The notes under the pieces are model-generated. The model was not told the DNA's origin, made no database searches, and saw only the letters and a list, made by a program, of their open reading frames with translations. This document shows positions 5,153-7,837 of a stretch of 64,000 nucleotides of DNA, piece by piece. This stretch comes from an uncultured Mucilaginibacter sp. (lineage in GTDB: Bacteria; Bacteroidota; Bacteroidia; Sphingobacteriales; Sphingobacteriaceae): the NCBI RefSeq assembly GCF_913773635.1, contig NZ_CAJYGQ010000006.1, positions 186,001 through 250,000 of the forward strand, written 5' to 3'. The translations under genes and the position numbers were made by a program. Each line of letters starts with the position of its first letter. Position 1 is the first letter of the stretch.

Positions 5153-6001
5153 TTAATTTTTACTTGAATAGTAGGTTAATAAATTGTTTATAGGTTCTTT
5201 TAAAATAAGTGATATTGTAATACCGGTTTCATCAGCTGCTTGCTGTACATAAGTCTTAAAACCGGCAGCAACCGACCCTGCGAAGTAAATTTCTTCATCA
5301 GGGTGTTGACGCTTTAAGGGAGCAACATAAGTATTGATAAGCAGTTTGAATCCTTCAACCAACACGTTTTGTATATATGGGTCGGTTTGATTGTCAGCGT
5401 AGAATTCTGTAAGTGAACTTAAATACAATGCCGGCTGACGTTGATGGTAAACCTTCTCCAATAAGGTACGCCTGTCAGCATCATAATGTTTAATAAAGCG
5501 CTTTCTTAAGTTTTCAGGTAGTGTTTCGTTAAGGTAGGACTTAATTAGTTGCCTACCTAACCAATTGCCCGATCCTTCGTCTGCAAGCACATAGCCGAGG
5601 CCGTAGTTGTTGTCTTTGATTTTTTTGCCATCAAAATATGCTGCGTTTGATCCGCTGCCGCATATACAAACAATGCCGGATTTATTTTTACAACAGGCTA
5701 TTGCAGCACCAAGCATGTCATGATCAACAGAAACACGCGCATACTTAAAAAATGATGCAAAGCTTTCGCTCACCGCATCTCTAAGCGGATCGTTCAAAAC
5801 ACCGGCACCAAAAAAATAAATGCGTTTAATTTCCTCGGCATGGTGTATGAGGTTTATGTTTTTATTAAGTAGTTGCGTAATATGCTTTCTGTCGTTAAAA
5901 AACGGATTTATGCTGCTTGTTTTAAATGAAGCCACAGTGCGGCCCTTGTCGGCTAGCCGCCAGTCTGCATAATTAGAACCGCTATATATAACTGCAACCA
6001 T
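5153..6001 (-). CDS. BadF/BadG-type sugar-kinase-like protein, degenerate
   Basis: This ASKHA-fold protein of the BadF/BadG/BcrA/BcrD ATPase family is related to N-acetylglucosamine kinases. The start at 6001 (MVAVIYSGS) gives 282 residues. A longer frame to 6055 is rejected because it would run through the promoter at 6027-6055 and because the paralog at 6986-7837 aligns from this Met. The phosphate-2 region ([12 protein letters not shown]) and the [12 protein letters not shown] segment are kept. The N-terminal phosphate-1 loop is altered: the paralog has IADGGSTKTNW where this protein has [10 protein letters not shown], so the metal-binding Asp is missing. It may therefore be a weak kinase, a sensor or a partner subunit. 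It is first in an operon with gap and divergent from the NrtR-like regulator. Function is uncertain. Confidence 0.75.
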
Positions 6002-6026
6002 GTATTGTATAGCTTTGGTAGGCGCG

Positions 6027-6055
6027 CAAATATAACAACTTTGACGGCTTATCAA
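6027..6055 (-). promoter_or_regulatory. Promoter of the kinase-like/gap operon
   Basis: On the minus strand, TTG (6053-6055) is followed after 18 bases by TATATTTG (6027-6034), a full match to the Bacteroidota -33/-7 promoter. Transcription should start near 6020, about 20 bases before the ATG at 6001. Confidence 0.6.
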
Positions 6056-6144
6056 TCTATAAATTCATCTCAATTGTGTAATTTTTACACCATTATTTAT
6101 TATCAAATAACAGCTACTTATATTAACTCTATTTTTCGTAAAAA

Positions 6145-6177
6145 TTGTATAACAATATGTATAAAAATGTATACTTG
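6145..6177 (+). promoter_or_regulatory. Possible promoter of the Nudix regulator
   Basis: TTG (6145-6147), 22 bases, then TATACTTG (6170-6177), one mismatch from TAnnTTTG. It lies about 67 bases before the start codon. Confidence 0.35.
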
Positions 6178-6243
6178 CATATAACTATACTAAGAAAAGC
6201 ATTTAGGCGTAAGCGGCCTTTCACTAAAAACCTTTAAGTAGTC

Positions 6244-6945
6244 TTGGAAGAAAAATTGGTTAAGTTTGAATCGGCATTCTCGATTGATTGTGTAATATTC
6301 GGGTTTGAGGCCGGTGAATTGAAGATTTTGCTTATTGAACGGAAAGATAATCCATTCAAAGACTGGCTGGCCTTGCCCGGCGACCTTGTGAAAAATCATG
6401 AAGGGATAGAGGAATCAGCCGAACGTATATTATATGAACTTACCGGTTTGCGTGATTTACATATGGAGCAGTTCCATACGTTTGGCGATGTAAACAGGCA
6501 CCCGCGCGGGCGGATTATCACTGTTGCGTATTACGCTTTAATACGCATTGATGGGCAGCGTGAACTTAAGCCTGGTAATTTTGCAAAAAAGGCACTTTGG
6601 CACAGCGTGAATGATTTACCTAAGCTAGCCTATGACCACACTGAAATTTTTAAAACCGGTTTTACCAAGTTAAGAAGACGCTTAAGTTACCAGCCTATTG
6701 CTTACGAGTTGCTGCCCGAAAAATTTACGCTCACGCAGCTTCAGCAGTTGTATGAAGCTATTTTGAACAAAAAACTTGACAAGCGGAATTTCCGAAAAAA
6801 AATGTTGAGCTACGGATTTTTAAAGGAGCTTGATGAAAAGCAAAAGAACGTATCATTCAGAGCAGCCAAGTTATATAAATTTGATCGCAGGAAATACAGC
6901 AAAATTTTCCAGAACGAACTCGGAGTTGATATCGATAACCCATAA
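6244..6945 (+). CDS. Nudix-domain transcriptional regulator, NrtR-like
   Basis: This 233-residue protein has an N-terminal Nudix fold (about 1-140) and a C-terminal winged-helix part (about 150-225, ending FDRRKYSKIFQNE). That is the layout of the NrtR/AraR family, in which the Nudix domain senses a sugar or ADP-ribose ligand and the C terminus binds DNA. The Nudix box (about 46-69) is degenerate. Where hydrolases have RExxEExG this has RILYELTG (61-68), losing two metal-binding Glu, so hydrolysis is unlikely. It sits between two BadF/BadG paralogs and divergent from the one linked to gap, so those are the likely targets (inferred). The apparent start is TTG at 6244; no ATG fits upstream in frame. 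Confidence 0.8.
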   Translation: MEEKLVKFESAFSIDCVIFGFEAGELKILLIERKDNPFKDWLALPGDLVKNHEGIEESAERILYELTGLRDLHMEQFHTFGDVNRHPRGRIITVAYYALIRIDGQRELKPGNFAKKALWHSVNDLPKLAYDHTEIFKTGFTKLRRRLSYQPIAYELLPEKFTLTQLQQLYEAILNKKLDKRNFRKKMLSYGFLKELDEKQKNVSFRAAKLYKFDRRKYSKIFQNELGVDIDNP

Positions 6946-6972
6946 AAAAAGCGCTTAAAAAGCGCTTTTTTT
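6944..6972. terminator. Bidirectional terminator between convergent genes
   Basis: AAAAAAAGCGCTT / AAGCGCTTTTTTT is symmetrical and serves both the Nudix regulator (+) and the second kinase gene (-). It overlaps the last base or two of the regulator's stop codon. Confidence 0.85.
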
Positions 6973-6985
6973 ATGGATAGTCTCA

Positions 6986-7837
6986 TTATTCGTTTTCAAG
7001 GTGGAATTTCACCAGGTTATCTATAGGCGAGCGAATGATGTTCCCCATCTGCATGCCGTTTTCTAAAACTACTTCTTCTAACACGTTGCGGAAATTGTAT
7101 CCTACCGAACCAATGCAGTTAAACGTATAATTTTTATAGTTTGGATAGTGGGTAACCAGGTTGCGGAAAAAATCGTCAAACGATGATTTAACCAAATTGC
7201 GCATGTATTCTAAATGAACGTTGCTGTTATCATAAACAAATTTACTGAAGCCGGCACAAAACCTGTTAGCCAGGGGCTGCGAGTAAACTCTGTCGTTTAC
7301 GTCATCGGGTGTTAAATGGTAAGTTTCCCAAAAAACCTTACGTACGCTTTCGGGCATATAACCACGTAGGTAATCAACCAGCAATTTTTTGCCAATGTAG
7401 CAGCCACTGCCTTCATCACCTAATATATAAGCTCCCGAATCAATGTTGTGTGCAACGTCATACCCATCATAAATACATGAGTTTGTTCCGGTACCTAATA
7501 TTGCGGCAAACCCTTCTTTGCGACCTAACAAAGCGCGGGCCGCAGCAAGTAAGTCATGACCTATGTTGATCTTAGCTTGCGTAAAAACGCGGCTCATGCC
7601 ATCTTTTACAATGTCGCGTTTCTCATCGGTTGAACAACCTGCACCGTAGTAATTAACTTCGGTGAGTTTGTCTTTATCTAAATCGGCAGGTAGGTTATCG
7701 GTTAACGACTTGACTATATAGTCGCTGCTTACAAAGTAAGGATTGTAACCTTCAGTATTAAAGTAGGATTTTTTTCCCTCGTCGTTAACAAGGCACCAGT
7801 TTGTTTTTGTTGAGCCGCCGTCGGCAATTAATTTCAT
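6986..7837 (-). CDS. BadF/BadG-type ATPase, probable N-acetylglucosamine kinase
   Basis: This is the intact paralog of the gene at 5153-6001. It is predicted to phosphorylate an amino sugar such as N-acetylglucosamine using ATP in the cytoplasm. Starting at the ATG at 7837 it has 283 residues and begins MKLIADGGSTKTNW, the canonical phosphate-1 loop with metal-binding D6. The phosphate-2 loop is LGTGTNSCIYDG, followed by LGDEGSGCYIGKKLL. The frame is open back to 7915, but those 26 residues do not resemble the family and are rejected. It is single, convergent with the regulator. Substrate is inferred from family only. Confidence 0.82.
   Translation of the reverse strand: MKLIADGGSTKTNWCLVNDEGKKSYFNTEGYNPYFVSSDYIVKSLTDNLPADLDKDKLTEVNYYGAGCSTDEKRDIVKDGMSRVFTQAKINIGHDLLAAARALLGRKEGFAAILGTGTNSCIYDGYDVAHNIDSGAYILGDEGSGCYIGKKLLVDYLRGYMPESVRKVFWETYHLTPDDVNDRVYSQPLANRFCAGFSKFVYDNSNVHLEYMRNLVKSSFDDFFRNLVTHYPNYKNYTFNCIGSVGYNFRNVLEEVVLENGMQMGNIIRSPIDNLVKFHLENE

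Follow-up and report, generated by a model that had tools for sequence, protein, structure and literature searches.

A predicted sugar-binding pseudokinase encoded with glyceraldehyde-3-phosphate dehydrogenase and a probable NrtR-family regulator of glycolysis in Mucilaginibacter and related Sphingobacteriaceae

The stretch of DNA analysed here (the window, 64 kb) comes from a Mucilaginibacter, family Sphingobacteriaceae, and contains two sugar-kinase-like genes, A and B, on either side of a gene for a Nudix-type regulator, N. This flanking arrangement had been described in the first-pass annotation, and the frames of A, N and B lie where it placed them (Table 1). N is divergent from A and convergent with B, and on the minus strand the stop codon of A is followed after 10 nt by gap. 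Protein A is 98% identical to its counterpart in M. aquatilis (L050). Adjoining B, positions 8080-28645 of the window hold a long plus-strand gene run which, by eye (translations up to 13959, then the ORF list), resembles an exopolysaccharide cluster.

Table 1. Genes and candidate regulatory features of the locus (window coordinates)
Feature	Position	Strand	Basis or remark
gap, type I glyceraldehyde-3-phosphate dehydrogenase	4147..5142	-	GAPDH-I, E 3e-139; last gene of A-gap unit
A, MurK/NagK-fold protein without phosphate-1 Asp, predicted sugar-binding pseudokinase	5153..6001	-	282 aa, ATG at 6001
TATATTTG, candidate -7 promoter box for A-gap	6027..6034	-	Bacteroidota consensus TAnnTTTG
Candidate operator palindrome GTGTA-N5-TACAC	6076..6090		between divergent N and A
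N, NrtR/AraR-like protein with impaired Nudix box, predicted glycolysis regulator	6244..6945	+	domain matches
B, canonical MurK/NagK-type sugar kinase, loop ADGGSTKTNW	6986..7837	-	sequence matches, MKLIADGGSTKTNW
Relaxed copy of candidate operator, AGTGTATTTTTTACAT, 5' of B	7901..7916	-	palindrome scoring

A and B are homologous, with 27% identity (E 2e-37). The BadF/BadG-type label first given to them names a Pfam family that both do match (PF01869, BcrAD_BadFG), but at 25.3 bits for A and 20.9 bits for B the matches are under the curated cut-off of 31.5, and the strong matches are to kinases of the MurK/NagK type. By sequence, A matches the solved Bacteroidota sugar kinases 1zbs (E 8e-48) and MurK 8oqw (E 3e-47), and B matches 1zxo (E 9e-65); full-length relatives of both are Tannerella forsythia MurK and K1058, P. 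gingivalis PG1100 and B. thetaiotaomicron Q8A1P1 (crystallised). A structure of A predicted from a 36-row alignment (mean pLDDT 91.8) superimposes on 8oqw with Z 36.5 and rmsd 1.4 over 274 residues, the same fold at full length. A has the fold, the catalytic base and the sugar contacts of a MurK/NagK-type kinase and lacks the phosphate-1 loop DxGxT. The window genome holds a third homologue, C (G000:C8:334384-335226), which is 33% identical to A and has the canonical loop ADSGSSKTDW.

Residue 6 of A, the phosphate-1 Asp of the kinases, was read in 108 A loci only, 80 from Mucilaginibacter and 28 from other genera of the family. It is Tyr in all 80 Mucilaginibacter loci, and in the other genera Tyr in 24 and Phe in 3; the 28th (L188) is frameshifted and unreadable there. 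The absence of this Asp from the copy upstream of gap, seen at first in one sequence, therefore extends to 107 of 107 readable loci, and because Tyr or Phe stands there throughout, the loss is not due to chance or sequencing error; a local or chance substitution was considered and rejected, the change being fixed across loci. Asp stands at this position in each of the 59 B and C rows compared (38 and 21), and B carries the DxGxT loop in all 38 of its rows. The alignment of A was made without L003_A, which is cut, and the frameshifted L188_A; the B and C sets exclude six rows that were odd or from outside (L193, L195, L196, L198-L200).

Other residues were assigned roles from excerpts of the published MurK study (PMC10465942), with MurK placed on A by alignment. 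In the window, A carries the substitutions Asp6 to Tyr, Thr10 to Asn, Lys11 to Tyr, Thr12 to Ala, Thr116 to Ser and Ala195 to Ser, has Ala at residue 246 (equivalent to the adenine-stacking Tyr244 given for MurK in those excerpts), and retains Gly8, Ser9, Gly115, Gly117, Gly145 and Ser243. Positions 6, 11 and 12 are changed universally, and no readable locus has Thr at 10, where genera outside Mucilaginibacter mostly have Arg or Lys (25/27). Thr116 is Ser in 108/108 loci; Gly145 is kept in 65/80 Mucilaginibacter loci, the window included, and in 0/28 others; residue 246 is Ala or another small or polar residue in at least 65 of the 80 Mucilaginibacter loci and Phe in 12. On the sugar side, Gly67, Asp95 (the catalytic base), Gly134, Asp141 and Glu142 are present in 108/108 loci, Asn32 in 105/107 and Asn119 in 105/108. 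When only positions conserved in B and C are counted, most A rows have lost 6 of 10 ATP contacts but none of the 7 sugar contacts (one-sided test, p 0.017), a pattern that would make the degenerate copy, as had been proposed, better read as a sensor than as a kinase. Of the six losses, four are slight or incomplete (Ser for Thr116, Ser/Thr for Ala195, Thr for Ser243 where it is not kept, and Gly145), so that, with Gly8, Ser9, Gly115 and Gly117 kept, residual nucleotide binding by A is possible. Residue 134 is invariably Gly in A and C, with Ser in B; the site corresponds to Pro134 in MurK and Gly145 in human NagK (PMC10465942, excerpts), and from this single position we infer a pocket in A that may be more GlcNAc-like than MurNAc-like.

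The distribution of A was judged from a gap in E-values in a search of the family. A best match of 1e-73 or lower, as in true A copies, was found in 278 of 301 family genomes, and the other 23 had none better than 6e-56. On the same reading A is present in 84 of the 90 genomes from the genus, among them that of the window; five of the six lacking it are 58-86% complete and the sixth, G029, is 99% complete with 6% contamination. In 59 genomes outside the family, the best among the matches listed is 38% identical (G111, 1.8e-66), and three outside-family copies (L198-L200) keep the Asp. Over 12 Mucilaginibacter pairs the median dN/dS was 0.046 for A, 0.035 for B, 0.010 for N and 0.041 for gap, rough values given the high synonymous distances of A and N. 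By this measure A is under purifying selection, and a pseudogene is disfavoured.

A tree of 97 proteins, thinned by removal of the rows of L058, L093, L003 and L118, places A (support 100), B (100) and C (99) each on one side of a branch. A, C and the outside sequence L198 form a group with support 87 whose inner order is unresolved, so that A and B, which had been taken as paired paralogues, are homologous but not the closest pair. The stem of A is the longest of the three clades (1.05 changes per column, versus 0.49 and 0.4).

We compared the occurrence of A and C in 37 family genomes; the homologues L348-L374 were classed by best BLAST match, not by tree. A is present in 28, and 27 of these have a C-clade copy, one of them frameshifted (G253) and one a weak match (G156); the sole A-bearing genome without one, G157, is 71% complete. 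Of the 9 A-less genomes 8 were classified, and none of the 8 has a C-clade copy. Both proteins are missing from G201, g59 and g75, while two genomes that share the genus label of G201 have both. In the search of the 301 family genomes, four A-positive genomes show only two homologues (G266, G277, G285, G396), and in G285 and G266 the stretches surrounding A hold A alone. The co-occurrence suggests either a shared task of A and C or their shared loss in reduced genomes. In G253, an assembly of uncertain quality, A (L188) and C (L374) are both frameshifted and two B-type copies are intact. The neighbourhood of C is unrelated to the A locus: in the window genome (L130:8005-9245, G000:C8) C follows a gene for a stand-alone response-regulator receiver protein and RND-efflux-like genes (efflux by eye), and a similar order occurs in L218, L206 and L211 and partly in L202. 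Several genera also have second B-type kinases, 48-60% identical to the B-clade rows (L357, L360-L362, L364, L365, L367, L372, L373).

Gene order was examined in 120 loci, 80 from contigs of the genus search and 40 from other genera and outgroups. The order B> <N pfkA> A> gap> occurs in 78 of them and the same order without B nearby in 17 more, so the conservation in Sphingobacteriaceae that had been anticipated is borne out. Six loci, those of the window's closest relatives (L050-L055), have no pfkA; one has a frameshifted A; the remainder run off a contig end, lack A or belong to outgroups. Between N and A lies a phosphofructokinase gene (PFK, E 5e-109). Median spacing is 3 nt from pfkA to A (100 loci) and 6 nt from A to gap (106 loci), and gap immediately follows A in 106 of 108 A loci, with the contig ending at that point in the remaining two. 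The operon of A with gap, first read from the window, therefore holds, whereas A and B do not form one operon; the widespread operon is pfkA-A-gap, and the module as originally drawn was right in the A-gap part and without the pfkA that is absent in the window lineage. The comparison indicates that this lineage has lost pfkA from the locus; the window genome has one phosphofructokinase elsewhere, 56% identical. At the g58, g61 and g75 loci pfkA and gap occur without A. The locus is larger and more conserved than can be seen from the window alone.

N contains an NrtR winged-helix domain (E 7e-29), an AraR_C match and a Nudix domain; the winged-helix domain stands after the Nudix domain, as in the NrtR family, and among solved structures N is nearest to Bacteroides AraR (5bs6, E 7e-51). 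The Nudix box is impaired (RILYELTGL versus REUXEEXGU), and 17 orthologues caught by the pattern are likewise impaired. Against NF050029, the NCBIfam equivalog for the ADP-ribose-responsive NtrR of NAD metabolism, N scores 148 bits, below the cut-off of 400. From its domains and the sites described below, N is probably an NrtR-family regulator of glycolysis. The window genome encodes two further N-like regulators, 42-43% identical (G000:C3:95308-95928 and G000:C10:181807-182475).

The Bacteroidota -7 promoter box has the consensus TAnnTTTG, and TATATTTG lies 41 nt beyond a palindrome, GTGTA-N5-TACAC, that occurs once in the window. Of 107 loci, 102 have the form GTGTA-N5-nACAC in the interval from N to pfkA or A (76/78 Mucilaginibacter, 26/29 other), those without it being L054, L055 and the A-less L189, L190 and L192. 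A TATnTTCG or TATnTTTG box directly follows the palindrome in 94 loci (71 Mucilaginibacter, 23 other). At a score of at least 10 of 11 bases, 30/78 Mucilaginibacter and 27/29 other N-pfkA/A regions have a site (shuffled sequences, 0.3% and 0%); if 9 of 11 is allowed, about 4% of shuffles score that high. The best palindrome of 21 of the 78 Mucilaginibacter N-pfkA regions has a spacer of 3 nt; because the ACAC position is unchanged, we read these as N5 sites with a changed base. A relaxed copy near -59 of B (at -90 to -40) is present in 57/67 Mucilaginibacter loci, and copies in the same interval in 4/26 loci of other genera. An operator shared by the two intergenic regions 6002-6243 and 7838-8079 had been suggested; this is likely, with the copy at B relaxed and its conservation not extending to most loci of other genera.

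Besides the promoter of N itself, glycolysis genes not linked to it carry the same palindrome. A scan of six genomes found exact sites before pyruvate kinase in 6/6, before enolase in G150 and before aldolase in G317, together with other exact sites, some inside genes. Sites of at least 10 of 11 stand before pyk in 25/30 genomes, eno in 16/29 and fba in 8/28, versus 5/169 control genes, where some of the 5 matches may be real sites and the Fisher p-values count related genomes as independent. In the pyk set the L255 region has only 93 bp to the contig end and the G155 site is at -16; a frameshifted G317 enolase (L311) and a second weak aldolase match (L340) were removed from the enolase and aldolase sets. 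G169, the sole genome of the 30 without an N homologue, has no pyk site, a single case. In the window genome the pyk site is exact, and eno (9 of 11, at -115), fba (7 of 11) and the second pfkA (L221, 7 of 11) fall below 10 of 11. GTGTA-N5-TACAC occurs there in four places, between N and A, upstream of pyk, upstream of an MFS gene and within a gene; a reversed control pattern also occurs in four, so the number of sites is uninformative and their positions alone are informative. The first of two further observations is that the MFS transporter gene, a possible target, has its exact palindrome 88 nt upstream (G000:C13:218451-218466; L234, L345); the other is that NADH-dehydrogenase-2-like genes (named by eye) are preceded by a palindrome in L223 (G045) and L239 (G317) and may also be targets. 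The view of the locus as a regulated module is supported in part and widened, in that the probable targets of N are not confined to the kinase-like genes and include pyruvate kinase and enolase.

Taken together, the reading we favour, and hold to be somewhat better than an even chance, is that A is a pseudokinase that binds sugar, is produced alongside glycolytic enzymes under N and reports sugar supply to glycolysis. A would have arisen by duplication of a MurK/NagK-type sugar kinase; with the hexosamine pocket and catalytic base retained but the loop for the phosphates of Mg-ATP gone, it should bind sugar without phosphorylating it. It would be translated with GAPDH, and in most of the family also with PfkA, from one operon, which N, predicted to bind the palindrome, probably switches (in whichever direction) with pyruvate kinase, enolase and, in Mucilaginibacter, kinase B. 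Most likely A would signal the sugar supply through contact with another protein. Kinases of the MurK type form dimers (PMC10465942, excerpts), which makes a mixed dimer of A with the C-clade kinase plausible. That kinase, which co-occurs with A, is the best-supported candidate partner; GAPDH, from the fixed linkage to gap, or PfkA would come next.

Three other explanations bear on the same evidence. That A remains an enzyme whose phosphate-1 loop has been rebuilt, whether a slow sugar kinase, a user of another phosphate donor or a catalyst of another reaction, is unlikely but deserves serious weight: Asp95 and the whole sugar pocket are invariant, Gly8, Ser9, Gly115 and Gly117 are kept, and the Arg or Lys at position 10 outside Mucilaginibacter (25/27) could touch phosphate. 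Moreover, T. forsythia K1058 has a canonical loop yet low MurNAc turnover according to the excerpts of PMC10465942, so that motif and rate appear only loosely tied. Ordinary use of ATP by A is nevertheless argued against by the replacement of Asp6, Lys11 and Thr12 throughout and by the loss, in most Mucilaginibacter, of the adenine-stacking aromatic residue.

A role for A as co-regulator of N, in which sugar-loaded A frees N from DNA as Gal3 acts on Gal80, would fit its position beside N and inside the predicted regulon of N, but we consider it improbable. N is present where A is absent (g58, g61, G153, G201), and in some A-less genomes, such as G153 and G201, N persists together with glycolytic operator sites; A is thus not needed for N to function and is unlikely to be an obligatory helper. 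AraR and similar NrtR-family sugar regulators, as far as the excerpts of PMC4666351 describe them, bind their effector themselves. The chance that A is a decaying gene retained merely by its place in the operon is very slight: the longest stem of the three clades, its absence from some genera and the frameshift in G253 would be in keeping with decay, but the dN/dS of 0.046, the positions conserved specifically in A and its match in 278 of 301 family genomes are not.

On the favoured reading of A as a pseudokinase reporting sugar supply, A may provide the central metabolism of these soil bacteria with a built-in sensor of sugar. A kinase look-alike beside gap, with a palindrome that reaches pyruvate kinase and enolase, makes a concrete and testable control circuit, and since the same cells hold the canonical B and the nearest relative C, the loss of catalysis and gain of sensing could be compared directly. 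Among the literature matches listed, in which few subscription journals were covered, there was no description of a dedicated Sphingobacteriaceae glycolysis regulator, nor of an A-type pseudokinase or an NrtR-family glycolysis regulon in this family. Rather tentatively, at somewhat less than an even chance, we propose a dedicated Sphingobacteriaceae glycolytic sensor, a hexose- or hexosamine-binding pseudokinase tied to GAPDH, and usually PfkA, under N, that would set the activity of a partner, either kinase C or an enzyme of glycolysis, as a bacterial counterpart of Gal3 or GKRP. The Gal3 and GKRP sugar sensors are a kinase paralogue or a kinase partner and belong to protein families other than that of A; the likeness, a kinase paralogue or partner turned sugar sensor, is one of analogy.

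Within its own family, A is alike in fold to MurK and K1058 of T. forsythia (8oqw, 8ow9, 8oqk; 33% identity) and has in common with them the catalytic Asp95 and the sugar contacts, as these are set out in the excerpts of PMC10465942. Unlike them it has neither the DxGxT phosphate-1 loop nor the adenine-stacking Tyr and is encoded between pfkA and gap, and it has Gly134 in place of the Pro134 of MurK. N, for its part, shares the Nudix and winged-helix domains and the impaired Nudix box with BtAraR and the NrtR regulators (5bs6; PMC4666351, excerpts). It is set apart from them, so far as those excerpts go, by its candidate palindrome GTGTA-N5-TACAC and by predicted targets that are glycolysis genes, unlike the pentose and NAD targets of BtAraR and the NrtR regulators.
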